Assembly (NCBI GenBank): GCA_002794775.1
Contig: NBAY01000125.1
Coordinates: forward strand, 1 to 64,000
DNA from: Porodaedalea pini
Taxonomy: Eukaryota > Basidiomycota > Agaricomycetes > Hymenochaetales > Hymenochaetaceae
Length of the DNA: 64,000 bases
Reading direction: 5' to 3'
The notes below the pieces were generated by a model that ran no database searches, had not been told where the DNA came from, and saw nothing but the letters and a program-made list of their open reading frames with translations. Of this stretch, positions 2,295-25,283 are shown piece by piece (position 1 is the stretch's first letter; the number at the start of each line of letters is the position of its first letter). The translations under genes and the position numbers were made by a program.

Positions 2295-2489
2295 TATTCC
2301 AATTTTCCTTCCTCATTTATTTGCATATTCCAAACTTTCATCAATATAAATTATGCTATTCCGTACTCATTCCATACATGTCCATACTTACTCAACCTAC
2401 TTAACAAACAGGTCATGGAGCACACCAGGAAGATCACCGTGAATAATAGCCACAATGCTGATCATAGATACGGCAGTCTCCAGTTCTGC

Positions 2490-2970: not shown

Positions 2971-3029
2971 TAAGTCCACACGAAAACCGAGAAATAAGGA
3001 ATGATTGAATTTTCGCGCCGACTATTCTC

Positions 3030-4745: not shown

Positions 4746-5106
4746 CATGAAGCACTTTTCACTTGACAGTTTGTTCAGTGCAGAGAAGTTCAGACTTTAC
4801 GGTCTTCGGCTTGAAGATGAGCAAGTTGAAAGTCAGAAGTCGGATGGCATGTTGCCTGCAGCAGTGAGTGCGTCCCACCAGGCGGCCGGTAAGGCTACTG
4901 CTGTGTGCATAATGGTTGCGGTGGGTGTGATCGAGGGTATGTTCAGACGTTCTGTAAGGACATCGGCGCCAGACATATTGGAGTGGTAGCAGATGTGAAG
5001 ACTGTGGCACGCTGCGTCAAAACCAACATACATATGATCAAGTTCCCACACCTCTTCTGTGGACGACGCATCCAGGTGTGGGAAATTGGACTTAGCAGTT
5101 TTTGTC
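4746..5106. other. Element interior, nothing recognised
   Basis: Unique-looking sequence between the eIF4G fragment and the decayed inverted repeat. Open frames exist on both strands, but I recognise no protein family. It could be a further captured fragment. Confidence 0.3.
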
Positions 5107-5753
5107 ACCTGAAGTGCCTCCAAATACAAAATACATCATATCTAACTCAATTCTTCACAAAAACTCTTCAAAAAAGTTGCTAAATTTATTTTTCAATGGT
5201 TTCAAAAATGTGTTTGAGCTTAGAGGACAGAATATGGAATATTGAGGCTGCAGTAGTGGGAATATGTGTTTTTCTAGCAAAACTCCTTCCCTGAATTTCC
5301 CTGAGCTCAATTTTGAAGCTAACGGCATGAAATGGTTGGAGAATGGTCTGTATAATGTATATTGAATTTTAGATGGCTTATAACAATGCAGGCAATTTTT
5401 TGAAGACTGTCTGAGTCAAGCAAATTTGAGAGTTTCAGCACAACAGTCAAGCAGAACAAGAGGAGACATTAATATTCACTTTAGTTCAGCCCTCATAAAA
5501 TCAACCATATAATATATAGACCATTCTCCAACAAGTGTCATGTCATTAGCTTCAAATTTGAGCTCAGTAAAAATCAAGGAAGGAGTCTTGCTGGAAAAAC
5601 ATCTATTCTCACTACTGCAGCTTTAATATTCCACCTTCTGTCCACTAAGCTCACAAAATTCTAGAAGCCATTGAAACATAAATTTAGCAACTTTTTTGAA
5701 CTGATTCTGTGAAGAATTGAGTGAGATATAGATTTTACAAGTTTCTGAGGTGC
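5107..5753. mobile_element. Decayed inverted-repeat (MITE-like) element
   Basis: The left arm (about 5107-5370) and right arm (about 5510-5753) are inverted and alignable at very roughly 75-80 percent. Shared blocks include CTCAATTCTTCAC, TTCAAAAAAGTTGCTAAATT and GACCATTCTCCAAC. The arms fold around a centre near 5440. There is no coding potential. A related but disrupted copy lies at 6646-6851. Confidence 0.65.
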
Positions 5754-5789
5754 TCAAATGCTGCATTTGCTATAACATTTTCTGTCTCA

Positions 5790-5929
5790 TTCCACAACCC
5801 ACCTTGCCGATTCCAGCAAATTCCAATACAATTTTATTTTTCTACTCAATTTCGTGCAATTCCACAAACCACCTTGCCGGTTCTAGCAAATTCCAATACA
5901 GATCCTTTTTTCTACTCAATTCTGTGCAA
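5790..5929. repeat. Two tandem 70 bp subterminal units
   Basis: Units 5790-5859 and 5860-5929 share TTCCACAAMCCACCTTGCCG, AGCAAATTCCAATACA and CTACTCAATT. A third unit begins and breaks off. They lie just inside the right end of the TA-flanked element, and the left end has a similar ATTCC/ATTCT-rich stretch (1490-1650). Confidence 0.75.
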
Positions 5930-6645
5930 TTCCAAGGGGTCCAAATCCATCCTAATGCCATTCTGAACTATTCTACAAATGTCTTTCTATTCTAAAATTA
6001 TTCCATGATATTCCGTTGGGAGGTTTTTCCTGATGTAGGACGCTCCTATCCCACTTACCCAAACCAGGGTTTAATGAGCATTGGGATACCGGCACGCAGG
6101 CTAGCACCAGTCGTCCCTGCACCCCCGTGATGAAGTGCCGCATCAAACAACCAGCTGTACACACATCAACAAGGAGTCAGCACCGATTATATCATAGTAA
6201 CATATTGTGACGTGGGCCGCAGAAGCGCCACTTACTCATGCGGGATTTTATCAATCTAACGAATAGGGAGCAAGCAACGCAGTCAGGAAACAGAGATCCG
6301 AGGATATTGAAAATGAAATGGCCGAGAAAACACACATACGGAGTAGCATTCCGGGGGGAGCTCGTATTCAGGCCCATCCGACTTGCTCATTCGCGCTGAC
6401 CAGCCCTTCGAGATGATCGCCCGGACATCACCTACGAGAAAAAAATGGGCACGGGAAAGTGAGCGGATCCTATTATTATTGCACACTCTTCTTTACCGCC
6501 TTGACGACGCTTCGAGTCATTGCTGGAGGGTTGGGCACAGTGATGCTCCCAAAGCCGATGTACACTATCGGTTTTCCATCCTCTCGTGCCTTAGCCATCC
6601 ATTGCAGCAGGCTGTCAGGTGGTGCCCAGCCTAGATCAGGGTTCA

Positions 6646-6851
6646 AGCTTCAGTGACTTCATGTATAGCTCCACATATGAAGTCAGGTAAAATCATGAAA
6701 GGATATTGCTTGGCTGAACACCTGTTCTTAGCACTTCCAGCTCTCTACTTCAACACCTTGCTTTCTAAGCTCATATTTATATAGTAGATATCAAATGATG
6801 ATTTTATCAACTCATTTGGCAAAATACAGATTTTTTGAGCTCAAAAATGTA
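6646..6851. repeat. Disrupted relative of the 5107-5753 element
   Basis: A stretch around 6690-6780 (TTGCTTGGCTGAACA through TTTCTAAGCTCATA) aligns loosely with 5570-5660 of the decayed element. It fills the gap between the broken glucosyltransferase copy and the foldback at 6852. No gene is seen. Confidence 0.4.
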
Positions 6852-7710
6852 TTTTACAGCCATTTTCATAAGTCCTGCGACACGTGCATGTCACGTGAAA
6901 TGAGCCGCGTCAGAGCCAAAATGTCGAAAAATTAGAATGAATGCCTATTTTCTCTGTAAATTCTGCACAGTACCTGCTCATTAAGTACTCAAAAAAAAGG
7001 CATGGTTCTCAGGAGCAGAAATATGTAAAATAGGGAGCAATAAATTGACTGTGTAGGTGGGTGGAGATCAAACAAGTGCAGCTGGTCTGTTCTCTCACCC
7101 ATTTCCACCGAGATTCAAAAATTATGGTTCCCCTACATCTATCTATAAAATTCTTTCCTGTATCTGTAAATTAAGTATATGACTATATCAACAGCTCCTG
7201 AAAGTTTGAAGCCAATCCATTCAGTATTCATGGTCCAGCAGCAAGATTTGTGTTCCACTTCAAGCTCTTTCCACCCTCCTTTTCTCACAACAGGTCTTGC
7301 AGAGTAGAACACAAATCTTGCTGCTGAACCATGAATACTGAATGGATTGGCTTCAAACTTTCAGGAGCTGTTGATATAGTCATATACTTAATTTACAGAT
7401 ACAGGAAAGAATTTTATAGATAGATGTAGGGGAACCATAATTTTTGAATCTCGGTGGAAATGGGTGAGAGAACAGACCAGCTGCACTTGTTTGATCTCCA
7501 CCCACCTACACAGTCAATTTATTGCTCCCTATTTTACATATTTCTGCTCCTGAGAACCATGCCTTTTTTTTGAGTACTTAATGAGTAGGTACTGTGCAGA
7601 ATTCACAGAGAAAATAGGCATTCATTCTAATTTTTCGACACTTTGGCTCTGACGCGGCTCACTTCACGTGACATGCACGTGTCGCAGGACTTATGAAAAT
7701 GGCTGTAAAA
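6852..7710. mobile_element. Foldback element, 404 bp arms and 51 bp loop
   Basis: Positions 6852-7255 are the reverse complement of 7307-7710 with a constant coordinate sum of 14562, so there are no indels. About five mismatches were found by eye and all are transitions. The terminus is TTTTACAGCC. No target duplication is evident and no coding capacity is seen. Transcription in either direction would give a hairpin RNA of about 400 bp. Confidence 0.9.
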
Positions 7711-7787
7711 GACTAGTGATTTTGGTTGTGGCAAACATTTTGGCATACAACAGTATGTAAATCTAGCAAATTGCATGCCAGCAAGAC
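7711..7787. other. Spacer ending in the 7 bp left target-site repeat GCAAGAC (7781-7787)
   Basis: This AT-rich spacer lies between the foldback and the large palindrome. Its last seven bases, GCAAGAC, recur at 22747-22753 directly after the palindrome and are read as a target-site duplication. Confidence 0.7.
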
Positions 7788-7859
7788 CACTTCAGGCTAC
7801 CCCTAAAAGTAGACCTATTAGGCTAATTCTTACACACAGATAATTAACCTATTAGGGGT

Positions 7860-8060
7860 CAGGTTTGGGTGTACCCAATTTCCTGGGTGCACCCAGTGGG
7901 TGTGAGCTGGGTATACCCAATTGTAATTACTGTGGGAAAATTGGGCCTACCCAGTTTCTAGGGCACTCCCAACTGGGCCTCCCCAATGTTCCTAGGTGGG
8001 CATGCCCTGGGTATACCCAGATATGTCACTGTCACTGACTGTCTGGGGGACTTTTGGGCA
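7860..8060. repeat. End-proximal GGGT/ACCC palindromic motif cluster (left)
   Basis: Near-palindromic 12-mers follow each other: TGGGTGTACCCA, TGGGTGCACCCA, TGGGTATACCCA, TGGGCCTACCCA, and then GGGCACTCCCAACTGGG and a second GGGTATACCCAG. Position and repetition suggest subterminal protein-binding sites. The same motif builds the minisatellite at 9200-9790. Confidence 0.75.
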
Positions 8061-9182
8061 CACCCAGAAAATCATCCCTCCCTCCCCTTTTATTTTTTTA
8101 TTTTCTTCTTCAGCTGTATACTTCTAATGGCTTCATAGATGCATATATAAATATAGGTTGCATGCTGAATGTGCATCTGCTATTTTAAGCTCTGTATATA
8201 GCTTGTAGACATTATAAAGTATGAAAGTCAATTATATTGACATCTGAGCTTGCTATTGCAGAATACCCATTGTCAAGTGCAAATAGCAAGTTGTTTGATT
8301 AAGCTTTGAGCTCAGTTTTGAATGTATCTTGACCTCAATCAAGCTCAAATTTTATTTATTTTATTTAGGACTTCATTCTACTTCAAAGTTCAAATCTCAA
8401 TTCTATTGCTAAAACTTTCTTCTCCCTTAGGTCATAACAATCAAGCTAGAACCTCATGGTTGATTCTTGAGCTCTACATTCATTCTCAAATTGAGCAGCT
8501 TCTGTAAGCCCACCAGAGCATTTTTACCACATCTGACTTAACATCAACTGGCTGGACATCATGTCATGACTCTGAGGTACTGAGCTGCTGATATTCCAAG
8601 ATGCACAAACTCCAGAAGGCCACCATACATCCATACCATGACTGCACTGAGTCTGAGCCTGAAACTTGGTGGCAGCATAGCCTCTGGACATTTGGAGCAT
8701 AGCACATTATATTCTATTTATATTCTTTTCATATTCCCTTCACTCCCCAACCCATCCAAAGCTAATATGAACTCATTCAAAGCTCATATGCACTTGCACT
8801 GAGTCAAGTGATCCTTTGGCAGACATATACTAAAGATTTATGCATTCTGAGAGTAATTCTCAACAGATTCCTTTCAGACTGGTACTGTATAGTTCATATT
8901 ATATAATCCTTCCTATTTGAACCCTTTCTGATGCCTTTGTTGCCTCAGTCTCTCTGACAGCAACAAATATTGTTTTGTCCTGTCTGTCTTGTGGGCTCAA
9001 GTGTTGGCACTATCTAGGTGCCTTCTATATAGGATCAATTTATTACTGCAAAGAGAAATAAGATTAGATACTACTGAGATGAAAAGGAGAGCCTGACTGA
9101 GAGAGCCTAGATGTCTTAGGTATATACAAAGATTTGGAGGTGTCCAGTTGGATGTGCCTAAAACATTTGAGAGTGTCTAGCT
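8061..9182. other. AT-rich arm sequence without genes
   Basis: No open frame with family resemblance was found on either strand. The mirror is 21352-22473. Confidence 0.6.
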
Positions 9183-9800
9183 AGGTATTCCCAGATACAT
9201 TGGGTATGCCCAGTTGGGCACTTTCAATTATTTGGGTATGCCCAGTTGGGCACTCCCAATTATTTGGGCACGCCCAGTTGGACACTCCCAATTATTTGGG
9301 TACACCCAGTTGGGCACTCCTAATTATTCGGGCATGCCCAGTTGGGCACTCCCAATTATTTGGGTATGCCCAGTTGGGCACTCCCAATTATTTGGGTACG
9401 CCCAGTTGGGCACTCCCAATTATTTGGGTACGCCCAGTTGGGCACTCCCAATTATTTGGGTATGCCCAGTTGGGCACTCCCAACCATCTGGGTATGCCCA
9501 GTTGGGCACTCCCAATTATTTGGGTATGCCCAGTTGGGCACTCCCAACCATCTGGGTATGCCCAGTTGGGCACTCCCAATTATTTGGGTATGCCCAGTTG
9601 GGCACTCCCAACCATCTGGGTATGCCCAGTTGGGCACTCCCAATTATTTGGGTATGCCCAGTTGGGCACTCCCAACCATCTGGGTACGCCCAGTTGGGCA
9701 CTCCCAACCATCTGGGTACGCCCAGTTGGGCACTCCCAACCATCTGGGTATGCCCAGTTGGGCACTCCCAACTATTTGGGAATACCCAGTTGGGTGTGCC
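9183..9800. repeat. 32 bp minisatellite, about 18 units (left arm)
   Basis: The unit reads GGGTATGCCCAGTTGGG followed by CACTCCCAATTATTT. A variant ends AACCATCT, and the two variants alternate over part of the array, giving a 64 bp higher-order repeat. Because 32 is not a multiple of three and the unit lacks stops, long open frames appear in several frames on both strands; these are repeat artefacts. Each unit holds self-complementary pieces (TGGGTATGCCCA, CCCAGTTGGG). Confidence 0.93.
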
Positions 9801-10093
9801 TAGCTACTTATTATCTTTTTTAATTTCTGCTTAAGATTTTTTTTTTCTTTTTTTGAGAAGTAAAAACTGTTATGTCATGAAAATCAAATGGGTCTAGAAT
9901 AGAAGTCTTGAATATTCTATGGAGAATTTCTCAATCATTTTACTATAGGCTCTGAATCTTAGCTGCCTTGCTCTGAAGACCAATCAATACACTGCAAGCC
10001 ACTGCAGGTCAGATGACAATGTTGTTTGATGTGAAAGCAAAAGAAAGTAATGTTTGCTGTGCACTGAGCACTGCATGTTGGTGAGCTACAATG

Positions 10094-11154
10094 ACCATAC
10101 TAGAACATGCTCCAAGGGTCAGCAGCATCATACTGATCATGTTGGTACAGAGCATAGCTTGGGGAGTTGGACTGATCCACCAGGAAAATGAGCGAGTTCA
10201 TGGTAGCAGTGTACTTGTTGGGGCCATGGTCACTGTAGTTGAAAAGCAAAGTCACACCCTGAATATACATGTGCAAAAAACCACTGAGGTTCAAGTTTGG
10301 GTTGTTACTGAACATGCCGAACTCCGAACCAGTTGCTGACACAAGCGAAGAGGTCATCTCAGACTAGCCAGTCATTCCGAAGTACCAATAGTTTTTTAGT
10401 TTGCTGTCTCCACCCACAAACCATCATCTGAGACAGCAAAGCAGTTCTCCTTCGCATTCGCAACAGTAAGAGGAAGAAGCTGCACTGTGTTTCCAGTCAT
10501 GTCATCACTTAGGATGGTGAGAGATGCCAAAGTGAGACCACCATTGCAAACACAGTTCCAGTTACCCTTAATATCAGCATCTGACCACCAGCCATTCGTG
10601 CCCTGTGCCAGAGCAGCAATGCCAAGGGACAGACCATACTGGTTCAAAGTGGACCAGATCATCTCCTTCTTGTCATCAGCCCACATGTCGTAAAGCTAGT
10701 TGTAAGCAATACCAAAAGCGGCGGACATTTCAGCAGTGTCAAGAAAATGAGCAGGACTCCACCTGTCAACAGCGGGATCCCATGAGGTCGAGCCATTGCC
10801 AGCAGCATTCTGCAAGTACAACATATCAGCATGTATGAGGATGCAAATTATATAATGAGCCAAACCTGGAGCTCTAGCCAGGTACGGTCAACTCACAATG
10901 AATCGTTCGTCATGCGGTAGACATACGCAAAGGCCTTATGCACTCTTTGACTTGACGGCAGGCATCAAGCATACCACTGGCACCATCCATGAAATACGGG
11001 ACAGGGTCCATGGCCTTCCAATCAGAGGCATTGCCGAAGATCGTCTGGTTCCAGCTGCTGAAGTAAGGGTCGTGCGCAATAAGGTTAGGCAGCACTTCCC
11101 ACTTGAAAGCCGGCTCAATGAGACGCAGCTAGAGCAAAAGTAGCGTGTCTTCCT
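10094..11154 (-). pseudogene. Heparinase II/III-like polysaccharide lyase fragment (left arm)
   Basis: The minus strand encodes the catalytic-domain family seen in Agaricomycete heparinase II/III-like (chondroitin AC/alginate lyase fold) proteins. Blocks include EVLPNLIAHDPYFSSWN, FGNASDWKAMDPVPYF, then NAAGNGSTSWDP, HFLDTAEMSAAFGIAY, GWWSDADIKGNWNCVCNGGL, and finally DHGPNKYTATMNS and QYDAADPWSMF. An intron lies between the LELQ and NAAGNG blocks, so the source was genomic DNA. Several in-frame stops (for example TAG in place of the W of YNWLYD, and stops after ETAN) and frame slips make it non-coding. The protein's N-terminal region and C-terminal beta domain are missing. Confidence 0.85.
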
Positions 11155-11383
11155 CACAGTCTGGACCTGGTTCTTCTGCATGGTGATGGTGATGTCGATG
11201 TGACGCTCTGGGATAGATGCACGGCCGCATCATCTGGCAGCGTCGCAGCACATCTAAGTGCCCTGTTTGCCATGCCTGCCTTCGTCCTCACATGACCAAA
11301 CTCCGGGCTTGCGCCTGCATCTGACAAGGGTGGACTCGGGAAGTGCATCACGTTGTGCACTGCAGAAACCGGAGACGATCCAA

Positions 11384-12574
11384 ATGCGCTTGCACCCTAG
11401 CTTTTCATGTGTTGCATGCCGCGTGACTGCTCTTCCTGCGGCGGCGTAGTACTCTTGCCGACCCAGAGACGCGGTCCTAGGGCATCGCCCAGTGCGCGTT
11501 CGCGGCGTCCAACCACATGTGATGGGACCGGAGAGATTCACCCATGTTCGATTTGAATAGCATCGATCCTGTAATGATTTCGATACGAGAGTGAGTGCGG
11601 CGACGAAAGTGCGCCGCGGGCGAAGAAGCGGCAATGACAGAGGTGACAGCGGTGTGAGCGGTTTTGCAAGGATCTTACGACGCTTGTCATTAGACTGCCT
11701 TTGAGTCTGCATCTGCTGAGTGGATGGAAGCGAAGCGTCCATCTGGTAGACTGTCGGCACGCGCGATCTGTCGGAGGGGTCCATTGACGTCAGCTCTGTC
11801 AGAAAACCGCAGGGGTTGGACGTGTCCGAAGAGGTATTCGCCTTTGACGAGAGAGACACCTCGCCTTCCCTCTTATCCAACTCCGGCTCGACCCGTCACC
11901 TTCCCCCGCACCGCCCCGATGTAGCAGAGCGCCGACTGCAGGACGCTACGTCTCGTGCGTGAACGGCGAGGCGAGTGCGATGCAACGCGTATGCGACGAA
12001 GTGCGCAAGCGTATTCGGTATCACTGGTGCCCCTCTTGATCCTGCCATTGCGGTAGCGGGGGGCACGCAAGACGACTGCGGTCGAGGACGATGTGGAAGA
12101 GGTGGAGGACGACGGAGGAAGGATCTCGGGGCAGTTGAAGGTATGGCTGACGAAGCGCGCACAGAGCTTGCTGGTGTCTTCGTGCCCGTAGTAAGTGGCG
12201 ACTGCCGGTGGGGGTGCTGCCGGCGCGGGGTGGTGCGAGTGGTGTGCGCGCGGGACTGCCGATGACTGTTTTTTGTCGAACGTTTTCGGCGCGGTCGGAG
12301 GAAAAAAAACGCGATAGAGAAAAAGACACCGATCAACAGCCGCTCATCACTCAATTATCAGAGATCGGGGGGAAAGAGGGGGGACGCTTACAGAACTCGA
12401 GGTAGATGCTGCGGCAGCGGCGGACGCAGAAGACGATTTCGCAGGTGGAGGCGGGGCGTACGTCGCGCGGTGCACGCGCCGGAAGGGCGAGTGGTTCGAG
12501 CTGGCACTCGATGATGATATCGAATGCTGATGCGGATGGGGGTGGGGATGGCGCGGGGCGTGGACGGTGGCCAT
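11384..12574 (-). pseudogene. PHO80/PCL-type cyclin fragment (left arm)
   Basis: Minus-strand translation starts MATVHAPRHPHPHPHQHS, a histidine- and serine-rich leader. It continues through an intron to YYGHEDTSKLCARFVSHTFN and LAHFVAYALHRTRLA, then shifts frame. Later blocks give PTVYQMDASLPSTQQMQTQR and PRRTFVAALTLVSKSLQDRCYSNR, the cyclin-box core of fungal PCL/PHO80-like cyclins (compare the family's LASKFLQDRCYSNRAW). Stops and frame changes break it after the leader and after the cyclin box. The region 12575-12843 between this fragment and RPS6 is probably its promoter or 5' leader; no protein was recognised there. Confidence 0.72.
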
Positions 12575-12843
12575 ATTCGCTGCGGCGGGCTCTCTGGCTC
12601 TAGGCGTTGACGAGCGTCTGTGAGCGTCAAAGGACAGGTGGAGTTGATGCGTGAGAAGAGGTCGCTACGAATGTTTTGATTGGAACGAGATCCTTCTCGG
12701 ACACAACGGTTGCGTCGCGTTCGCCGAAGTGCGCAGTGAGAAAGGCAGATGAGAAAACGGCTGACGTCGATGTTGAGGCGTGTGGAACATTGGCGGGGGC
12801 AGAAGGAAGAGGTGAGGAATGCGTCCCAGGTGAACAGGGCGAG

Positions 12844-13149
12844 GGAAGTTGAACCGCTCGACGGTTTCGGTAGATGTCGCCAGTCCCTCCCTGCCTGACA
12901 ATGACGAGAGAGAGGACAGCGACGTTGCGACCGATGATGCAGCCACGGGCCGGCTTGCACTTTCTCACCAGTGCAGCAGAGACGGTAGCAAGAGTGACCA
13001 GCAGAAAGGAGAAGGCGAGCAGTTAGGAATGAGTACACCCTGCTTCATCGGGAAGTCCTGCTCGTCGTTTCCGCCAGAGACGCGGAAGACGTGGCCCTTG
13101 AACTCATCACCGAGCAAGTCGCTGGGGACACCTGGGACATCTTCTTGCC
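12844..13149 (-). pseudogene. Ribosomal protein S6 (eS6) fragment (left arm)
   Basis: The minus strand reads [17 protein letters not shown], then [12 protein letters not shown], then after a frame slip [11 protein letters not shown], and then [21 protein letters not shown]. This order matches the N-terminal half of eS6. The remainder of the protein is absent. Its start lies within a few bases of the HSP90 fragment, which is read in the opposite direction, so 13140-13160 is a capture junction. Confidence 0.8.
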
Positions 13150-13154
13150 GTGGA

Positions 13155-14262
13155 AAATGCGGTAACGACCACCTCGCTATGAAGCACTTCTCGGTAGAAG
13201 GTCAGCTCGAATTCAAGGCTATTCTCTACATTCCGAAGCGGTGAGTCTCCTTGCTGGCCTTGCTATGAACCTGTTTCTGACGTCTCTTTTAGCGCACCGT
13301 TCGACCTCTTCGAGTCCAAGAAGAAGCGTAACAACATTAAGCTCTACGTCCGCCCCGTCTTCATTATGGACGACTGCGAGGATCTCATCCCCGAGTACCT
13401 TAACTTCGTCAAGGGTATCGTCGACTCTGAAGATCTCCCGCTCAACATCTCGCGTGAGACGCTCTAGCAGAACAAGATTCTCAAGGTCATCCGCAAGAAC
13501 ATCGTGAAGAAGTGCCTCGACCTCATCCAGGAGATCTCGGAGGACAAGGACAATTTCAAGAAGTTCTACGAGGCGTTCGGCAAGAGCCTCAAGCTTGGTA
13601 TCCACGAGGATGCGCAGAACCGCAGCAAGCTCGCCGAGTTCCTCCGCTTCTACTCGACGAAGTCGACTGAGGAGCAGGTCTCGCTGAAAAAGGGTACGTG
13701 TTCAAGCGGCGGCCCTGTTCCATTATTTGGTTACTGACAGCTTACCGCAGACTACATCACGCGGATGCCTGAGATTCAGAAGTCCATCTACTACCTCACT
13801 GGCGAGTCGCTCAATGCCGTCAAGGACTCTCCCTTCCTTGAGGCTCTCAAGAAGAAGGGCTTCGAGGTACTCCTGCTTGTTGACCCGATCGACGAGTACG
13901 CCGTCACTCAGCTCAAGGAGTTCGACGGTCACAAGCTCGTGTGCGTGTCGAAGGAGGGTCTGGAGCTCGAGGAGACCGAAGAGGAGAAGAAGGAGCGCGA
14001 GAGTGAGGCCTCGCAGTTCGAGGAGCTCTGCAAGGTCGTCAAGGATGCGCTCGGCGACAAGGTCGAGAAGGTCGTCATCTTGAACCGCGTCACCGACTCA
14101 CCATGTGTGCTTGTCACCGGCCAGTTCGGCTGGTCCGCAAATATGGAGCGCATCATGAAGGCGCAGGCGCTTCGCGACTCGTCAATGTCATCGTACATGG
14201 CGTCGAAGAAGACGCTTGAGTTTAACCCGCACAACGCGATCATCAAGGTCCTTCGATGTTGA
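13155..14262 (+). pseudogene. HSP90 middle/C-terminal domain fragment (left arm)
   Basis: This is a high-identity HSP90 segment: [21 protein letters not shown], then [64 protein letters not shown] and [20 protein letters not shown]. It spans the second half of the middle domain and the start of the C-terminal domain. Two introns are retained (13241-13292 and 13694-13750, both GT-AG), so it was copied from DNA. An in-frame TAG interrupts the ETLQQN motif (CAG to TAG, about 13466), and after NPHNAIIK the frame ends. The ATPase domain and terminal MEEVD are missing. It cannot make a chaperone. Confidence 0.93.
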
Positions 14263-14352
14263 TCGTCTTTTGCTGGCCCATCGCCAGGTCAGCGATGTCG
14301 ACACTTCATGGCCGGTGGTGTCTTGAGGAGCTCGTCGTGTTCTGTCCCTTCA

Positions 14353-14427
14353 GGCAAGCAAAAAAAATGATGAAAAGTAATTATTAGTATATTCAAATAG
14401 TTTTTATGATTATTTTTTTTGCTTACC
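14353..14427. repeat. 75 bp AT-rich hairpin (mini inverted repeat)
   Basis: GGCAAGCAAAAAAAATGAT at one end pairs with ATTATTTTTTTTGCTTACC at the other. It lies just downstream of the HSP90 fragment, with mirror 16107-16181. It may be a very small MITE or a binding-site pair. Confidence 0.55.
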
Positions 14428-14498
14428 TTGAGTGTGTGGCCGGTGGGACAGCCGTGCTCGTCGTCGATGGTGAAGACGAAACGACACGAACAACGACG

Positions 14499-14703
14499 AC
14501 GCGTTGGTTGTGTTGCCTAATTTGGCCGATCGCCGCGTCTCAAACAAGCAATCAAAGCATTCCGATTCTTTCGGAAATCTCGAAAGTCTCAGCTGTTGGC
14601 CTCAAACAAATTCTACGGACGCGTTTAAAAATACAAAAAAATACGGAATAGTTTTATTATGTATGTATCTCTATCATAGCCAATAATTACGCGTCAAACG
14701 CGT
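14499..14703. repeat. Four ACGCGT sites in 205 bp (left arm)
   Basis: ACGCGT occurs at 14499, 14619, 14689 and 14698, mirrored at 15831-16035. The sites lie at the inner side of the arm, outside the gene fragments. They could be binding sites for an element-encoded or host factor; ACGCGT is also the MluI cell-cycle box core in fungi. Confidence 0.5.
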
Positions 14704-15107
14704 TTTTTTATGGAGTAATAAATACAACAGTAATCTTGACATGCAGCACCAGGCCTCCAGAAGCATACACAAAAGTACAATATACCCTGAAAGGCCTGGC
14801 ACCTATTCTATCATGAAGTAAGTGATACATTGTGTATGCATGCAAGGTTTCAAGCCAATCAGACATGAACTGACTTCATAATAGAGAAGGAGGTGGTTTC
14901 ATGAGATCTTCTGAATCTGAGTGTTTTGTATATCCTGTTCCCACTTTCTACTTTGATGGTACATAAAATATTAAGCATATCCAGAATGGATATGTCTATG
15001 TTTCTGTAAGTTTACAAGTTTCCAGCCTCAGTGGTTGGAGCTGGGTGAATTGAAAAACATCGAAAAGCATGGTTTTTAGAAGTTCAGAGAAAGCATATAT
15101 TCATGTT

Positions 15108-15426
15108 GTTGCTTTATTCCAAACCTCAGGAAGCTCTATAAAATAGATATTAGTACTTTATATGACTACAATAAATGTAATCAGGTGCTAGATCTCGGAG
15201 TTAGAGGAAAGTTCTGAAGGGGCAGAGGAAATACATGCAAAACTGCTCTGTGTTTCTTGGATTTGTGTCGAGTTTCACAAAACATGAACTGTATCACCTC
15301 TCATTTCACTCCCAATTCCGAACTTTTTCCTCACCCACAAAACTAAGGACTGGATATCTTTCTTGCAGCATACTTAAATACAAATAACTAATTTTGTTGA
15401 GCTTCTCATACTGTGAACCAACTAAA
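15108..15426. other. Unpaired centre (loop) of the palindrome, 319 bp
   Basis: The arms stop matching at 15107/15427. The 319 bp between are not self-complementary and contain no recognisable gene. A unique spacer allows junction-specific amplification and argues against a simple sequencing fold-back. Confidence 0.85.
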
Positions 15427-15830
15427 AACATGAATATATGCTTTCTCTGAACTTCTAAAAACCATGCTTTTCGATGTTTTTCAATTCACCCAGCTCCAAC
15501 CACTGAGGCTGGAAACTTGTAAACTTACAGAAACATAGACATATCCATTCTGGATATGCTTAATATTTTATGTACCATCAAAGTAGAAAGTGGGAACAGG
15601 ATATACAAAACACTCAGATTCAGAAGATCTCATGAAACCACCTCCTTCTCTATTATGAAGTCAGTTCATGTCTGATTGGCTTGAAACCTTGCATGCATAC
15701 ACAATGTATCACTTACTTCATGATAGAATAGGTGCCAGGCCTTTCAGGGTATATTGTACTTTTGTGTATGCTTCTGGAGGCCTGGTGCTGCATGTCAAGA
15801 TTACTGTTGTATTTATTACTCCATAAAAAA

Positions 15831-16035
15831 ACGCGTTTGACGCGTAATTATTGGCTATGATAGAGATACATACATAATAAAACTATTCCGTATTTTTTTG
15901 TATTTTTAAACGCGTCCGTAGAATTTGTTTGAGGCCAACAGCTGAGACTTTCGAGATTTCCGAAAGAATCGGAATGCTTTGATTGCTTGTTTGAGACGCG
16001 GCGATCGGCCAAATTAGGCAACACAACCAACGCGT
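15831..16035. repeat. ACGCGT cluster (right arm mirror)
   Basis: Mirror of 14499-14703. Confidence 0.5.
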
Positions 16036-16106
16036 CGTCGTTGTTCGTGTCGTTTCGTCTTCACCATCGACGACGAGCACGGCTGTCCCACCGGCCACAC
16101 ACTCAA

Positions 16107-16181
16107 GGTAAGCAAAAAAAATAATCATAAAAACTATTTGAATATACTAATAATTACTTTTCATCATTTTTTTTGCTTGCC
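16107..16181. repeat. 75 bp AT-rich hairpin (right arm mirror)
   Basis: Mirror of 14353-14427. Confidence 0.55.
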
Positions 16182-16271
16182 TGAAGGGACAGAACACGAC
16201 GAGCTCCTCAAGACACCACCGGCCATGAAGTGTCGACATCGCTGACCTGGCGATGGGCCAGCAAAAGACGA

Positions 16272-17379
16272 TCAACATCGAAGGACCTTGATGATCGCGT
16301 TGTGCGGGTTAAACTCAAGCGTCTTCTTCGACGCCATGTACGATGACATTGACGAGTCGCGAAGCGCCTGCGCCTTCATGATGCGCTCCATATTTGCGGA
16401 CCAGCCGAACTGGCCGGTGACAAGCACACATGGTGAGTCGGTGACGCGGTTCAAGATGACGACCTTCTCGACCTTGTCGCCGAGCGCATCCTTGACGACC
16501 TTGCAGAGCTCCTCGAACTGCGAGGCCTCACTCTCGCGCTCCTTCTTCTCCTCTTCGGTCTCCTCGAGCTCCAGACCCTCCTTCGACACGCACACGAGCT
16601 TGTGACCGTCGAACTCCTTGAGCTGAGTGACGGCGTACTCGTCGATCGGGTCAACAAGCAGGAGTACCTCGAAGCCCTTCTTCTTGAGAGCCTCAAGGAA
16701 GGGAGAGTCCTTGACGGCATTGAGCGACTCGCCAGTGAGGTAGTAGATGGACTTCTGAATCTCAGGCATCCGCGTGATGTAGTCTGCGGTAAGCTGTCAG
16801 TAACCAAATAATGGAACAGGGCCGCCGCTTGAACACGTACCCTTTTTCAGCGAGACCTGCTCCTCAGTCGACTTCGTCGAGTAGAAGCGGAGGAACTCGG
16901 CGAGCTTGCTGCGGTTCTGCGCATCCTCGTGGATACCAAGCTTGAGGCTCTTGCCGAACGCCTCGTAGAACTTCTTGAAATTGTCCTTGTCCTCCGAGAT
17001 CTCCTGGATGAGGTCGAGGCACTTCTTCACGATGTTCTTGCGGATGACCTTGAGAATCTTGTTCTGCTAGAGCGTCTCACGCGAGATGTTGAGCGGGAGA
17101 TCTTCAGAGTCGACGATACCCTTGACGAAGTTAAGGTACTCGGGGATGAGATCCTCGCAGTCGTCCATAATGAAGACGGGGCGGACGTAGAGCTTAATGT
17201 TGTTACGCTTCTTCTTGGACTCGAAGAGGTCGAACGGTGCGCTAAAAGAGACGTCAGAAACAGGTTCATAGCAAGGCCAGCAAGGAGACTCACCGCTTCG
17301 GAATGTAGAGAATAGCCTTGAATTCGAGCTGACCTTCTACCGAGAAGTGCTTCATAGCGAGGTGGTCGTTACCGCATTT
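16272..17379 (-). pseudogene. HSP90 fragment (right arm)
   Basis: Identical mirror of 13155-14262, with the same retained introns, in-frame TAG and truncations. Confidence 0.93.
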
Positions 17380-17384
17380 TCCAC

Positions 17385-17690
17385 GGCAAGAAGATGTCCC
17401 AGGTGTCCCCAGCGACTTGCTCGGTGATGAGTTCAAGGGCCACGTCTTCCGCGTCTCTGGCGGAAACGACGAGCAGGACTTCCCGATGAAGCAGGGTGTA
17501 CTCATTCCTAACTGCTCGCCTTCTCCTTTCTGCTGGTCACTCTTGCTACCGTCTCTGCTGCACTGGTGAGAAAGTGCAAGCCGGCCCGTGGCTGCATCAT
17601 CGGTCGCAACGTCGCTGTCCTCTCTCTCGTCATTGTCAGGCAGGGAGGGACTGGCGACATCTACCGAAACCGTCGAGCGGTTCAACTTCC
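17385..17690 (+). pseudogene. Ribosomal protein S6 fragment (right arm)
   Basis: Identical mirror of 12844-13149. Confidence 0.8.
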
Positions 17691-17959
17691 CTCGCCCTGT
17701 TCACCTGGGACGCATTCCTCACCTCTTCCTTCTGCCCCCGCCAATGTTCCACACGCCTCAACATCGACGTCAGCCGTTTTCTCATCTGCCTTTCTCACTG
17801 CGCACTTCGGCGAACGCGACGCAACCGTTGTGTCCGAGAAGGATCTCGTTCCAATCAAAACATTCGTAGCGACCTCTTCTCACGCATCAACTCCACCTGT
17901 CCTTTGACGCTCACAGACGCTCGTCAACGCCTAGAGCCAGAGAGCCCGCCGCAGCGAAT

Positions 17960-19150
17960 ATGGCCACCGTCCACGCCCCGCGCCATCCCCACCCCCATCC
18001 GCATCAGCATTCGATATCATCATCGAGTGCCAGCTCGAACCACTCGCCCTTCCGGCGCGTGCACCGCGCGACGTACGCCCCGCCTCCACCTGCGAAATCG
18101 TCTTCTGCGTCCGCCGCTGCCGCAGCATCTACCTCGAGTTCTGTAAGCGTCCCCCCTCTTTCCCCCCGATCTCTGATAATTGAGTGATGAGCGGCTGTTG
18201 ATCGGTGTCTTTTTCTCTATCGCGTTTTTTTTCCTCCGACCGCGCCGAAAACGTTCGACAAAAAACAGTCATCGGCAGTCCCGCGCGCACACCACTCGCA
18301 CCACCCCGCGCCGGCAGCACCCCCACCGGCAGTCGCCACTTACTACGGGCACGAAGACACCAGCAAGCTCTGTGCGCGCTTCGTCAGCCATACCTTCAAC
18401 TGCCCCGAGATCCTTCCTCCGTCGTCCTCCACCTCTTCCACATCGTCCTCGACCGCAGTCGTCTTGCGTGCCCCCCGCTACCGCAATGGCAGGATCAAGA
18501 GGGGCACCAGTGATACCGAATACGCTTGCGCACTTCGTCGCATACGCGTTGCATCGCACTCGCCTCGCCGTTCACGCACGAGACGTAGCGTCCTGCAGTC
18601 GGCGCTCTGCTACATCGGGGCGGTGCGGGGGAAGGTGACGGGTCGAGCCGGAGTTGGATAAGAGGGAAGGCGAGGTGTCTCTCTCGTCAAAGGCGAATAC
18701 CTCTTCGGACACGTCCAACCCCTGCGGTTTTCTGACAGAGCTGACGTCAATGGACCCCTCCGACAGATCGCGCGTGCCGACAGTCTACCAGATGGACGCT
18801 TCGCTTCCATCCACTCAGCAGATGCAGACTCAAAGGCAGTCTAATGACAAGCGTCGTAAGATCCTTGCAAAACCGCTCACACCGCTGTCACCTCTGTCAT
18901 TGCCGCTTCTTCGCCCGCGGCGCACTTTCGTCGCCGCACTCACTCTCGTATCGAAATCATTACAGGATCGATGCTATTCAAATCGAACATGGGTGAATCT
19001 CTCCGGTCCCATCACATGTGGTTGGACGCCGCGAACGCGCACTGGGCGATGCCCTAGGACCGCGTCTCTGGGTCGGCAAGAGTACTACGCCGCCGCAGGA
19101 AGAGCAGTCACGCGGCATGCAACACATGAAAAGCTAGGGTGCAAGCGCAT
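17960..19150 (+). pseudogene. PHO80/PCL-type cyclin fragment (right arm)
   Basis: Identical mirror of 11384-12574. Confidence 0.72.
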
Positions 19151-19379
19151 TTGGATCGTCTCCGGTTTCTGCAGTGCACAACGTGATGCACTTCCCGAGT
19201 CCACCCTTGTCAGATGCAGGCGCAAGCCCGGAGTTTGGTCATGTGAGGACGAAGGCAGGCATGGCAAACAGGGCACTTAGATGTGCTGCGACGCTGCCAG
19301 ATGATGCGGCCGTGCATCTATCCCAGAGCGTCACATCGACATCACCATCACCATGCAGAAGAACCAGGTCCAGACTGTG

Positions 19380-20440
19380 AGGAAGACACGCTACTTTTGC
19401 TCTAGCTGCGTCTCATTGAGCCGGCTTTCAAGTGGGAAGTGCTGCCTAACCTTATTGCGCACGACCCTTACTTCAGCAGCTGGAACCAGACGATCTTCGG
19501 CAATGCCTCTGATTGGAAGGCCATGGACCCTGTCCCGTATTTCATGGATGGTGCCAGTGGTATGCTTGATGCCTGCCGTCAAGTCAAAGAGTGCATAAGG
19601 CCTTTGCGTATGTCTACCGCATGACGAACGATTCATTGTGAGTTGACCGTACCTGGCTAGAGCTCCAGGTTTGGCTCATTATATAATTTGCATCCTCATA
19701 CATGCTGATATGTTGTACTTGCAGAATGCTGCTGGCAATGGCTCGACCTCATGGGATCCCGCTGTTGACAGGTGGAGTCCTGCTCATTTTCTTGACACTG
19801 CTGAAATGTCCGCCGCTTTTGGTATTGCTTACAACTAGCTTTACGACATGTGGGCTGATGACAAGAAGGAGATGATCTGGTCCACTTTGAACCAGTATGG
19901 TCTGTCCCTTGGCATTGCTGCTCTGGCACAGGGCACGAATGGCTGGTGGTCAGATGCTGATATTAAGGGTAACTGGAACTGTGTTTGCAATGGTGGTCTC
20001 ACTTTGGCATCTCTCACCATCCTAAGTGATGACATGACTGGAAACACAGTGCAGCTTCTTCCTCTTACTGTTGCGAATGCGAAGGAGAACTGCTTTGCTG
20101 TCTCAGATGATGGTTTGTGGGTGGAGACAGCAAACTAAAAAACTATTGGTACTTCGGAATGACTGGCTAGTCTGAGATGACCTCTTCGCTTGTGTCAGCA
20201 ACTGGTTCGGAGTTCGGCATGTTCAGTAACAACCCAAACTTGAACCTCAGTGGTTTTTTGCACATGTATATTCAGGGTGTGACTTTGCTTTTCAACTACA
20301 GTGACCATGGCCCCAACAAGTACACTGCTACCATGAACTCGCTCATTTTCCTGGTGGATCAGTCCAACTCCCCAAGCTATGCTCTGTACCAACATGATCA
20401 GTATGATGCTGCTGACCCTTGGAGCATGTTCTAGTATGGT
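19380..20440 (+). pseudogene. Heparinase II/III-like fragment (right arm)
   Basis: Identical mirror of 10094-11154, with the same stops. Confidence 0.85.
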
Positions 20441-20733
20441 CATTGTAGCTCACCAACATGCAGTGCTCAGTGCACAGCAAACATTACTTTCTTTTGCTTT
20501 CACATCAAACAACATTGTCATCTGACCTGCAGTGGCTTGCAGTGTATTGATTGGTCTTCAGAGCAAGGCAGCTAAGATTCAGAGCCTATAGTAAAATGAT
20601 TGAGAAATTCTCCATAGAATATTCAAGACTTCTATTCTAGACCCATTTGATTTTCATGACATAACAGTTTTTACTTCTCAAAAAAAGAAAAAAAAAATCT
20701 TAAGCAGAAATTAAAAAAGATAATAAGTAGCTA

Positions 20734-21351
20734 GGCACACCCAACTGGGTATTCCCAAATAGTTGGGAGTGCCCAACTGGGCATACCCAGATGGTTGGGA
20801 GTGCCCAACTGGGCGTACCCAGATGGTTGGGAGTGCCCAACTGGGCGTACCCAGATGGTTGGGAGTGCCCAACTGGGCATACCCAAATAATTGGGAGTGC
20901 CCAACTGGGCATACCCAGATGGTTGGGAGTGCCCAACTGGGCATACCCAAATAATTGGGAGTGCCCAACTGGGCATACCCAGATGGTTGGGAGTGCCCAA
21001 CTGGGCATACCCAAATAATTGGGAGTGCCCAACTGGGCATACCCAGATGGTTGGGAGTGCCCAACTGGGCATACCCAAATAATTGGGAGTGCCCAACTGG
21101 GCGTACCCAAATAATTGGGAGTGCCCAACTGGGCGTACCCAAATAATTGGGAGTGCCCAACTGGGCATACCCAAATAATTGGGAGTGCCCAACTGGGCAT
21201 GCCCGAATAATTAGGAGTGCCCAACTGGGTGTACCCAAATAATTGGGAGTGTCCAACTGGGCGTGCCCAAATAATTGGGAGTGCCCAACTGGGCATACCC
21301 AAATAATTGAAAGTGCCCAACTGGGCATACCCAATGTATCTGGGAATACCT
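20734..21351. repeat. 32 bp minisatellite (right arm)
   Basis: Mirror of 9183-9800, with the same order of unit variants. Confidence 0.93.
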
Positions 21352-22473
21352 AGCTAGACACTCTCAAATGTTTTAGGCACATCCAACTGGACACCTCCAA
21401 ATCTTTGTATATACCTAAGACATCTAGGCTCTCTCAGTCAGGCTCTCCTTTTCATCTCAGTAGTATCTAATCTTATTTCTCTTTGCAGTAATAAATTGAT
21501 CCTATATAGAAGGCACCTAGATAGTGCCAACACTTGAGCCCACAAGACAGACAGGACAAAACAATATTTGTTGCTGTCAGAGAGACTGAGGCAACAAAGG
21601 CATCAGAAAGGGTTCAAATAGGAAGGATTATATAATATGAACTATACAGTACCAGTCTGAAAGGAATCTGTTGAGAATTACTCTCAGAATGCATAAATCT
21701 TTAGTATATGTCTGCCAAAGGATCACTTGACTCAGTGCAAGTGCATATGAGCTTTGAATGAGTTCATATTAGCTTTGGATGGGTTGGGGAGTGAAGGGAA
21801 TATGAAAAGAATATAAATAGAATATAATGTGCTATGCTCCAAATGTCCAGAGGCTATGCTGCCACCAAGTTTCAGGCTCAGACTCAGTGCAGTCATGGTA
21901 TGGATGTATGGTGGCCTTCTGGAGTTTGTGCATCTTGGAATATCAGCAGCTCAGTACCTCAGAGTCATGACATGATGTCCAGCCAGTTGATGTTAAGTCA
22001 GATGTGGTAAAAATGCTCTGGTGGGCTTACAGAAGCTGCTCAATTTGAGAATGAATGTAGAGCTCAAGAATCAACCATGAGGTTCTAGCTTGATTGTTAT
22101 GACCTAAGGGAGAAGAAAGTTTTAGCAATAGAATTGAGATTTGAACTTTGAAGTAGAATGAAGTCCTAAATAAAATAAATAAAATTTGAGCTTGATTGAG
22201 GTCAAGATACATTCAAAACTGAGCTCAAAGCTTAATCAAACAACTTGCTATTTGCACTTGACAATGGGTATTCTGCAATAGCAAGCTCAGATGTCAATAT
22301 AATTGACTTTCATACTTTATAATGTCTACAAGCTATATACAGAGCTTAAAATAGCAGATGCACATTCAGCATGCAACCTATATTTATATATGCATCTATG
22401 AAGCCATTAGAAGTATACAGCTGAAGAAGAAAATAAAAAAATAAAAGGGGAGGGAGGGATGATTTTCTGGGTG

Positions 22474-22674
22474 TGCCCAAAAGTCCCCCAGACAGTCAGT
22501 GACAGTGACATATCTGGGTATACCCAGGGCATGCCCACCTAGGAACATTGGGGAGGCCCAGTTGGGAGTGCCCTAGAAACTGGGTAGGCCCAATTTTCCC
22601 ACAGTAATTACAATTGGGTATACCCAGCTCACACCCACTGGGTGCACCCAGGAAATTGGGTACACCCAAACCTG
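22474..22674. repeat. End-proximal GGGT/ACCC motif cluster (right)
   Basis: Mirror of 7860-8060. Confidence 0.75.
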
Positions 22675-22746
22675 ACCCCTAATAGGTTAATTATCTGTGT
22701 GTAAGAATTAGCCTAATAGGTCTACTTTTAGGGGTAGCCTGAAGTG

Positions 22747-23213
22747 GCAAGACAGAATTGATTATGAACACTGGCTAACTCAATGCAGGTCAAAGATAGA
22801 TATGTTTGCAGGAATAGTCAAACAATGCACATTGAGGTAATCCAAATGATGAGGAACATATGCAAACCGGGCAGGGAATTGTGCAAAGATATGGATGTTT
22901 GCAGAGAGCGGACATGATCTGACTAGCTTGTCTGAGCACATTTGCTCACGATTTTGGCCGCTAGGGTCCTTCCTAATGGGGTAAACAAAGGATCTTTGCA
23001 GATAAGTTTTCAACTCCGCTTTGTGGTGAGCAATGTGGCCTCACCATTCAGTATATAAAGCCTGTCCATCCGCTACCCAGTCCCCATTATCTTTAGACTT
23101 CAGACTCCGGAATTCGAAACATGCCAAGGGGAAAAGCTGCTTCGTCAAGCTTACTGGCACTACGATATGAGAAAGTATCTTCATCCGAAGTATCCGATGC
23201 TGGGTTATTTGCA
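22747..23213. other. Right target-site repeat GCAAGAC (22747-22753) and flank
   Basis: GCAAGAC at 22747-22753 repeats 7781-7787. The rest is the 5' flank of the small gene, with a TATATAA box at about 23052. An ATG at 23121 opens 97 bp ending at a GTGAGT donor (23218), but joining it to the next acceptor (23262) leads to an early stop, so it may be a 5' leader exon. Confidence 0.5.
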
Positions 23214-25283
23214 CTGCGTGAGTGTTCGAATTCACTAGTCGTTTGATTCTTATCTCCTCCAGAACACGCTTCTCTTTCTTCCTCACGACTTCCGATAAAT
23301 GATGATGATCACTGAATTTAGCCCTTTAGATATATCTCAGGCTCAGGGAAAGTATGCAAAGTACAAGGACTGGTTTTTATGGAAGGATACCGACTCGAAG
23401 AAAGGAGCATTGAAGTTTGTAGGTGAGTGTCGTCTCGTCAGATAAAACACTTTTACTCCTGTTTGACAGCAACGGTTCTGCAGCTAGCAAAGATTATCCT
23501 ATGATGGGCGGTAAGCTGAAAGAAGGCCTAACTGAGGTCACAGATCTCTGGGCAGCAGCTCACTACTGGAACTTCTTCACGGAGAACAAGACGGTGTACG
23601 AAGAGAGGGAGAAACAGTGGAACATGTATGAACCCAAAGACTGAGAAATCGCATTCAACCTTAACGGCATGGAATGCATCTCAAATATCTCGAGAGTCTC
23701 ACGTACTAGGATAGTATTTAGTTGTAGTCTTATGCGATGAGTATCTGTCCTTAGAACAATATCATTTGCCATCCACCAGACTCCAACTTGTAATTAAGAA
23801 TCCCCAGCAGACAGTGACGCTGTTGACTCATCAACGTCTCGGCGGTGTTCACCTTGCAGATGATGAGGATGCCCCATTGTCAGTATGGACTGGGATTGAG
23901 CATCAGGCCCTACCTCGAGGAAAATGATAACACTAGCAAAGTTCAATTGCTCTAAGAGCCGCCGTCGCCGAATAACATAAGTTGCCGGCTTTGATTCGTA
24001 TGTTATCAAACTAAGTACAATAAGACTACAGTTCGTAGTGCAGAGACAGGAGAGCAGAATGAATTCTACGACAGTAAACCTACGCATAACTAATTGGACT
24101 ACAACAACATTCAAATTGCTTTCTAATGAGTGATCATCGTGAAGATATCGTGGATGTTAGAAACATGAAATTACAGCTATAGGTATTATGGGGAATGATG
24201 ATGCACGAAGATGCAAGAAAGCAAGGCAGCCATATCCTACATACAAATAACACATGATAACTTCAATCCAGTTCGGACCTGACGCGACCTGCGCGCTTAA
24301 GGTAGGTATATATGGCGCGCACGGCATTCCGCGTGCCGTCCTCCTGAGATCGAAGGCTTTGCATGAGAATTCACGATATACAATAAGAATAAGAAAGAAA
24401 CGTACTTGTCTAATGTTCTCTCCGACGGAAGCTGCTCGCTCCTTCATGACTCTGTCGCATAATAGAAATCAGCGTTCATTCCAGGTTAGCGAAAAACACC
24501 ACAGGAAAAAAACGTACCTGTCGGAGGTGGCTTTGATGAGCGCACTGGCAAGCTCCGACGAATGCAGACTTGAGACCTTCAAACCTGCCCCTATTTTCTG
24601 CACACGTGAAGCCCAGAAGAATTGATCACTAAACAAATGCAGGTGCATCAGCTCCCAGAGCACGAACTAAGACGCTCCTATCCCACTTACCCAAACCAGG
24701 GTTTAATGAGCGTTGGGATACCGGCACGCAGGCTAGCACCAGTCGTCCCTGCACCCCCGTGATGAAGTGCCGCATCGATCTGCGGGAACAACCAGCTGAA
24801 CACACATCGACAAAGAGTCAGCTCCGATTATTTCATAGCAACATATTGTGACGTGGGCCGCGGAAGCGCCACTTACTCATGCGGGATTTTATCAATCTAA
24901 CGAATAGGGAGCAAGCAACGAAGTCAGGAAACAGAAATCCGAGGACATTGAAAATGAAATGCCCGAGAAAGAACACATACGGAGTAGCATTCCGGGGGGA
25001 GCTCGTATTCAGGCCCATCCGACTTGCTCATTCGCGCTGACCAGCCCTTCGAGATGATCGCCCGGACATCACCTACGAGAAAAAAATGGGCACGGGAAAG
25101 TGAGCGGATCCTATTATTACTGCGCACTCTTCTTTACCGCCTTGACAACGCTTCGCGTCATCGCTGGAGGGTTGGGCACAGTGATGCTCCCAAAGCCGAT
25201 GTACACTATCGGTTTTCCATCCTCTCGCGCCTTAGCCATCCATTGCAGCAGGCTGTCAGGTGGTGCCCAGCCTAGATCAGGGT
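23214..25283. repeat. Right copy of the direct duplication (uninterrupted)
   Basis: Collinear with 1-1438 plus 6036-6645 and carries the empty target site of the 4.6 kb element at about 24668. It retains CG dinucleotides at many positions where the left copy has TG or CA. Confidence 0.93.
23299..23644 (+). CDS. Small hypothetical protein, right copy (94 aa, two exons)
   Basis: The model is exons 23299-23422 and 23484-23644 with a GTGAGT donor and CTGCAG acceptor, giving a continuous 94-residue frame from a triple ATG to a TGA. An in-frame TAA directly precedes the ATG. The protein contains DWFLWKDTDSKKG, YPMMGGKLKEG and AHYWNFFTEN; no family was recognised. A TATA-like box lies about 250 bp upstream. 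It is convergent with the sterol glucosyltransferase, whose stop is about 620 bp away. The left paralogue (88-442) keeps the frame and splice sites. An alternative acceptor (CAG before CAACGG) would break the frame, so I chose the CTGCAG site. Confidence 0.5.

Follow-up and report, generated by a model that had tools for sequence, protein, structure and literature searches.

A dispersed family of long palindromes in Porodaedalea pini shares its termini with KDZ-coding transposons

The stretch of DNA studied here, referred to as the window, comprises positions 1 to 64,000 of contig NBAY01000125.1 (C125) in the Porodaedalea pini assembly GCA_002794775.1; the searches covered the whole assembly (53.3 Mb in 201 contigs). 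Away from the palindrome, the window has a 943-residue open frame whose best named protein matches are from Fomitiporia mediterranea (62% identity), Sanghuangporus and Phellinidium, which fits a basidiomycete host, probably of the Hymenochaetales. The window contains a long, exact palindrome that occurs as one member of a dispersed family. We conclude that this element is probably a non-autonomous KDZ (Kyakuja-Dileera-Zisupton) transposon consisting almost entirely of terminal inverted repeats (TIRs), which is moved by a KDZ transposase and whose arms are kept symmetric by copying. Its coding relatives assign the family to KDZ, and in anatomy it is Foldback- or Galileo-like. The element is made up mostly of long TIRs with internal tandem repeats, as in Foldback elements, although membership in Foldback is not claimed.

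Insertion as a unit and dispersed copies

Pairing each position i of the window with position 30534-i revealed no mismatch and no indel over 7788-15107, or 7,320 bp per arm, bearing out the two indel-free arms around a 319 bp centre that a first-pass annotation of the window had described. Chance cannot give 7,320 matching positions. The symmetry ends exactly at the arm ends, and the centre is unpaired, with 76 mismatches in 160 half positions. That annotation had also placed GCAAGAC directly outside both ends, which was confirmed as a 7 bp direct repeat. Its proposal that the whole palindrome inserted as one unit is supported by the target duplication, by an empty site and by the presence of many copies.

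The annotation had suggested looking for an empty site in other strains; one was found within the same assembly. When the two flanks of the palindrome are joined with a single GCAAGAC, they match C85:35444-35623 at 180 of 180 bases. In addition, 6 kb of the right flank matches C85 at 99%, which makes C85 the alternative haplotype or else a recently duplicated copy of the locus, without the palindrome. Since the palindrome is absent from a 99% identical copy of its locus, the insertion may be young. The joined flanks have a second, inverted match at C85:34649-34828, again at 180 of 180 bases. C85:34649-35665 therefore holds the empty site twice, in opposite orientations and ~600 bp apart. Either a genuine duplication in inverted orientation or a fold-back made in assembly could explain the doubling, and the event may have taken place at a hairpin-like inverted repeat that lies just left of the palindrome (6849-7713; 865 bp, halves ~95% alike) and has a 96% copy at C66:95476-96334.

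The palindrome belongs to a set with common ends. A search with the outermost 1 kb of the arm gave copies in inverted pairs on many contigs (40 of 220 candidates scored). When one mismatch is allowed, the 17 bp terminus has 118 matches in the genome against 2 for a reversed-pattern control, so the other copies that the annotation had proposed to search for are present in number. Twelve palindromes were read whole, namely the window element, 10 further ones with this terminus and C46, which has a diverged outer arm; C14 and C144 were read in part. In the first 11 palindromes, 22 of 22 ends begin CACTTCAGGCTAC. Exact target-site duplications (TSDs) of 7 or 8 bp flank 9 of 14 elements (C125, C116, C51, C65, C37, C59, C24 and the coding relatives C2 and C28 described below), and a 7 bp TSD with one mismatch flanks two more (C49 and C46).

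For the pairing of ends, 113 termini were collated by hand, from part of the 118 matches plus other terminus searches. They formed 45 plus/minus pairs under 45 kb, one of which (C78 65798-110380, 44.6 kb) is doubtful. The centre is present in at least 40 copies (40 of 55 candidates scored). Among the 40 scored, 34 lie within a terminus pair; of these, 28 are no more than 400 bp from its midpoint and 6 are off-centre. Another 6 lie in no listed pair. The paired termini around the at least 28 midpoint centres are 10.7-17 kb apart, and the centre-to-end distance varies from 5.2 to 8.5 kb, yet the 28 centres stay at the midpoint. Off-centre copies are as expected if something sits in one arm. For copies that were not read whole, symmetry rests on coordinates and on matches to both sides; for instance, 843 bp of the palindrome core matches both sides at many loci.

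Individual copies depart from this pattern in several ways. One of the 28 midpoint palindromes (C50 82633-95945) is nested in the terminus pair C50:61983-97119, whose own inner arms are ~8 kb apart. The C50 palindrome looks interrupted at its centre, and its two sides score equally. This nesting is a possible clock for arm conversion. The palindrome at C59:30708-44834 has a changed, shorter centre, with 213 bp between its arms of which only 77 bp match the common centre, and is not among the 28; its arms have no mismatch outside ~136 bp of gap. C46 matches the window at 98% over 11921-18613 and at ~77% at the terminus, and is different in mid-arm. This mosaic identity indicates that stretches have also been exchanged between lineages.

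KDZ-coding relatives

The first-pass annotation had stated that the palindrome lacks a transposase. This holds for the 17 arm frames of the window element scanned with Pfam, in which no transposase was found; matches given by frames over the 32 bp array were taken as low-complexity noise. Two relatives with the same terminus do carry a transposase domain, and thus a source of the kind that the annotation had considered supportive of transposition exists. The element at C2:501266-530822 is 29.6 kb long, with TSD TTGCTATC and TIRs of ~4.0 kb at 97.3% identity. The one at C28:3533-25584 is 22.1 kb long, with TSD ACTTGTAT and TIRs of ~4.0 kb at 98.3% (5 mismatches, 64 gap columns). Both TSDs are 8 bp. 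The KDZ transposase domain PF18758 is found in C2 (E 8.1e-54) and in C28 (E 2.4e-60), together with CxC1 domains in both.

The 17 bp terminus is exact in C2, C28 and the window element. Extending inwards, the window terminus matches C2 at 86% over 312 columns and C28 at 72-76% over 199-310 columns. In both relatives, units of 32-33 bp are also repeated in subterminal arrays; these resemble the 32 bp array of the window element, which may serve as a transposase-binding array. C2 and C28 occupy separate insertion sites and have 11.7 kb of interior in common (82% identity), indicating that the interior moves together with the termini. The KDZ frame of C28 has 705 relatives in public data at E ≤0.001, and all 120 of those listed carry PF18758. 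In the P. pini genome KDZ matches are common, with 77 matches at 53 loci. A Ty3-type gag-like frame (C2:507211-508392) lies inside the C2 element.

Host fragments and arms that change together

Both arms of the window element contain a fragment of a host Hsp90 gene, the parent of which is at C3:769757-771424. Because the match crosses an intron, the fragment was captured from DNA. In C14, both arms are without it: the left match stops at window position 13169 and the right one resumes at 14253, with 8 bp between. The left junction has a 3 bp overlap (GAC), which suggests end joining or template switching. The Hsp90 piece is found on both sides in 20 elements (83 of 91 candidates scored) and on one side only in C129 and C179; contig C179 ends within the element. 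Point changes behave similarly. Among the copies scored for the first large Hsp90 exon, only C125 and C116 have an in-frame TAG there, and each has it in both arms; in C121 another TAG, one exon further on, is likewise present in the two arms.

The arms of 11 elements were compared, with C46 and the tandem array left out. Outside the array, the arms differ at 30 of 73,347 sites (20 of 15,729 in the outer arm and 10 of 57,618 in the inner arm), and the mean divergence between elements is 1.47% in the outer and 0.87% in the inner arm. Non-majority states are present in both arms of an element in 393 cases and in one arm in 30, where states inherited by several elements are counted in each. The inner 5.2 kb is identical between the arms in 10 of 12 elements, the exceptions being C105 (1 difference) and C112 (9 differences). 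In a tree the two arms of each element group together, except in C105, whose arms are unresolved; support is weak at several forks of this tree, for which the bootstrap had not converged. The tandem array adds 45 arm mismatches in 12 elements, as well as copy-number gaps. Bit scores of the Hsp90 piece are equal on both sides in 15 of the 19 elements scored on both. The 393 shared states against 30, and an Hsp90 piece that is in both arms or absent from both, indicate that one arm has been copied from the other, for which gene conversion is the simplest explanation. The first-pass annotation had taken identical arms to imply recent origin or ongoing gene conversion. The comparison between elements shows copying between arms, and recent origin goes no further than the possibility raised by the empty copy of the locus on C85.

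The coordinates of the features in the window are collected in the table. The arms include a second gene fragment with a weak likeness to polysaccharide lyases, which has no Pfam match at 0.01. Beside the Hsp90 piece, the peptide encoded by the open reading frame 12627-13022 is presumably derived from ribosomal protein S6e (E 0.0035; 17.6 bits, below the Pfam cut-off of 26). Outside the element, the palindrome is flanked by two direct copies of a ~2 kb sequence that are 95% identical (1-1438 plus 6036-6643, and 23214-25284). The left copy is interrupted by ~4.6 kb of sequence (1439-6035), in which lies a dispersed repeat that has many copies at 88-99%.

Table. Features of the palindromic element, in window coordinates
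Feature	Position	Strand	Basis or remark
Whole palindromic element, 14,959 bp	7788..22746	.	Self-comparison; terminus common to other copies
Left arm, 7,320 bp	7788..15107	+	Mirror comparison
Right arm, 7,320 bp, exact reverse complement of left arm	15427..22746	-	Mirror comparison
Unpaired centre, 319 bp	15108..15426	+	Centre with its edges at 40 or more loci (40 of 55 candidates scored)
Left target-site duplication GCAAGAC	7781..7787	+	Single in empty site on C85
Right target-site duplication GCAAGAC	22747..22753	+	Single in empty site on C85
Conserved 17 bp terminus CACTTCAGGCTACCCCT	7788..7804	+	Genome-wide pattern search
Conserved 17 bp terminus, right end	22730..22746	-	Genome-wide pattern search
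Subterminal array, 32 bp unit, 18.6 copies	9200..9794	+	C2 and C28 likewise have arrays (32-33 bp units)
Mirror copy of 32 bp array	20740..21334	-	Symmetry
Lyase-like gene fragment	10396..10695	-	Weak heparinase/chondroitinase-type polysaccharide lyase likeness; 3 matches, best E 0.0034
Mirror copy of lyase-like fragment	19839..20138	+	Symmetry
Older sequence receiving Hsp90 piece	12966..13166	-	C14 comparison; adjoins sub-cut-off S6e match
Captured host Hsp90 fragment, intron included	13167..14252	+	95.6% over 1,089 columns to gene on C3; one in-frame TAG
Mirror Hsp90 fragment with same TAG	16282..17367	-	Symmetry and genome comparison
Palindrome core	14253..16281	.	94.7% match in C14 palindrome, itself without Hsp90 piece

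Alternative readings and known systems

A series of steps can be proposed for the KDZ reading. A KDZ element would lose its coding interior, and its long TIRs would meet around the 319 bp centre. The transposase of relatives such as C2:501266-530822 and C28:3533-25584 would recognise and cut the common termini, perhaps helped by the 32 bp subterminal arrays. Insertion of the whole palindrome would then create the 7-8 bp target duplication. Whenever a piece of a host gene or a point mutation entered one arm, copying with one arm as template for the other would restore symmetry. This copying would probably be gene conversion, which breaks at the centre or gap repair might set off.

A number of observations weigh against this reading. 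KDZ loci lie between such termini in only 2 of 53 cases, where 0.7 is expected by chance; the case therefore rests on the termini, interior and TSDs that C2 and C28 have in common. The window element resembles C2 and C28 only in terminal and subterminal stretches, and its centre and inner arm are not matched in them. Three of the 14 elements (C105, C86 and C112) have no matching TSDs. The left flank of C105 (C105:398-1148) equals the right flank of C65 (C65:52249-53000) in inverted orientation at 99.9%, through either ectopic exchange or a misjoin. Together with the missing TSDs, this flank indicates that ectopic exchange or misassembly occurs. The two sides of the Hsp90 comparison score unequally in 4 of 19 elements (C112, C90, C119 and C3), and the arms of C112 differ at 36 sites. 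No transposition was observed, and we infer gene conversion from the patterns of difference.

TSDs of 7-8 bp are not unique to KDZ elements: as far as the available parts of the sources go, they are usually 8 bp in hAT elements and 7 bp in hAT7 (PMC12730594), and 7-8 bp in Galileo (PMC4168063). Another transposase, for example of the hAT or P type, could thus move the palindrome, with the KDZ genes in C2 and C28 as passengers, and the overlap of 2 loci against 0.7 expected would fit this. We nevertheless consider it improbable, because C2 and C28 hold homologous KDZ and CxC1 interiors at two separate insertion sites; moreover, no hAT or P (THAP) domain was found in the 20 C2/C28 frames scanned, the genome not having been searched for hAT/THAP. 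An artefact of assembly, by fold-back or chimeric reads, is much less probable still. The flanks common to C105 and C65 and the inverted, doubled empty site on C85 do point to trouble of this kind. At C125, however, fold-back was rejected, since the flanks are unlike each other, the TSD is direct and the same assembly has the empty site, where GCAAGAC stands once, at 180 of 180 bases. In addition, a single asymmetric centre is common to other copies, several of which have genuine differences between their arms. These findings contradict the fold-back that the first-pass annotation had retained as an alternative. Long, identical-armed palindromes of host genes are found on sex chromosomes, and the palindrome might likewise be an immobile segmental inverted duplication of the host. 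The dispersed copies with a fixed terminus, the TSDs and the empty site make this the least probable explanation.

The origin of the symmetry is a closer question. Each copy might be remade as a palindrome from one arm, by hairpin or fold-back synthesis during transposition or gap repair. The arms would then be identical from the start, with no need for later gene conversion. This would account equally well for the identical arms, for an Hsp90 piece on both sides and for a centre at the midpoint. It predicts an even spread of arm differences, but most of them lie in the outer arm: 20 of 30, where the between-element rates would give 31.5% (p 7.8e-5). With C112 removed the count is 9 of 10 (p 2.2e-4), and in the 8 elements whose TSD is exact or has one mismatch it is 5 of 5 (p 0.003). 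The TSD copies differ at 2 of 66 sites, compared with 5 of 59,293 non-array arm sites in the same 9 palindromes, as if the arms were repaired after insertion; this comparison leaves out C105, C86 and C112, which have no TSD, and the KDZ-coding C2 and C28. Both results speak for repair of one arm from its partner that follows insertion and acts most strongly near the centre, rather than for one event when the copy is made. Both also depend on few events; the outer differences could come from exchange between elements, and a TSD mismatch may stem from an insertion error. Gene conversion therefore appears likely, with remaking from one arm an unlikely but live rival. The ‘snap-back’ way of moving in the first-pass annotation is accordingly not established and is kept as that rival to ordinary insertion plus gene conversion. 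Slightly more doubtful is the proposal that the palindrome is itself the replicating form and that each cycle regenerates both arms from one by hairpin or snap-back copying. If this were true, a gene caught in one arm would become a mirror pair in a single step, and the family would be a self-correcting one that spreads symmetric gene fragments.

The features of the family can be compared with those of described KDZ transposons. According to the portions of these papers available, KDZ1-3 of Cryptococcus neoformans are ~9-11 kb long, their TIRs measure 139-241 bp and their TSDs 4-8 bp (PMC12810828); two Kyakuja families lack TIRs, have CA..TG ends and make TSDs of 7 bp (PMC12730594). The present family is similar to KDZ transposons so described in its 7-8 bp TSDs, its CA..TG ends and the KDZ and CxC1 domains of the coding C2 and C28. 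It differs in its TIRs, which are ~4 kb in the coding elements and up to 7.3 kb and more in the almost all-TIR non-coding copies. In what is accessible of the Galileo literature, this element of the P superfamily in Drosophila has long TIRs with internal tandem repeats and all-TIR non-autonomous copies (PMC3573991, PMC4168063, PMC2775673). One 9,021 bp copy has TIRs of 4,246 and 4,680 bp with fragments of other transposons at both ends (PMC4168063), there are chimeric copies with non-matching TSDs, and ectopic exchange is described (PMC2775673, PMC3573991). Galileo is the closest system in anatomy, sharing the long TIRs with tandem repeats, the all-TIR copies, the 7-8 bp TSDs and some non-matching TSDs, and its two-ended fragments are a partial precedent for symmetric uptake. 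Galileo differs in its transposase superfamily, and neither a large set of near-perfect palindromes nor a host gene in both arms is described for it there.

Arm-to-arm gene conversion occurs in sex-chromosome palindromes. As in those palindromes, arms here are closer within a palindrome than between palindromes; unlike them, the present palindromes are dispersed transposons. Pack-MULEs capture host gene fragments, and Mutator-like elements differ from the present family in TSD length and transposase. The piece captured here, unlike theirs, sits inside both TIRs. Long TIRs are a feature of Mutator-like elements in the part of the source available (PMC3310237). Among the open-licence papers listed, judged by titles and the starts of abstracts, none describes palindromic or multi-kb-TIR KDZ elements; two of them, on mushroom genomes, mention Kyakuja once. 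Palindrome, TIR and gene conversion together gave no fitting title among the matches listed.

Relative to the TIRs of 0-241 bp described in the available parts of the KDZ papers, the family would extend the range of KDZ elements to multi-kb TIRs and all-TIR copies. By coordinates, at least 28 dispersed palindromes of 10.7-17 kb, with countable differences, are present in one fungal genome. With such a set one can measure, outside sex chromosomes, how arms are copied, how this copying changes with distance from the centre and how host genes are taken up symmetrically. Dozens of sites with inverted, nearly identical arms probably also give rise to rearrangements and to errors in assembling such genomes.

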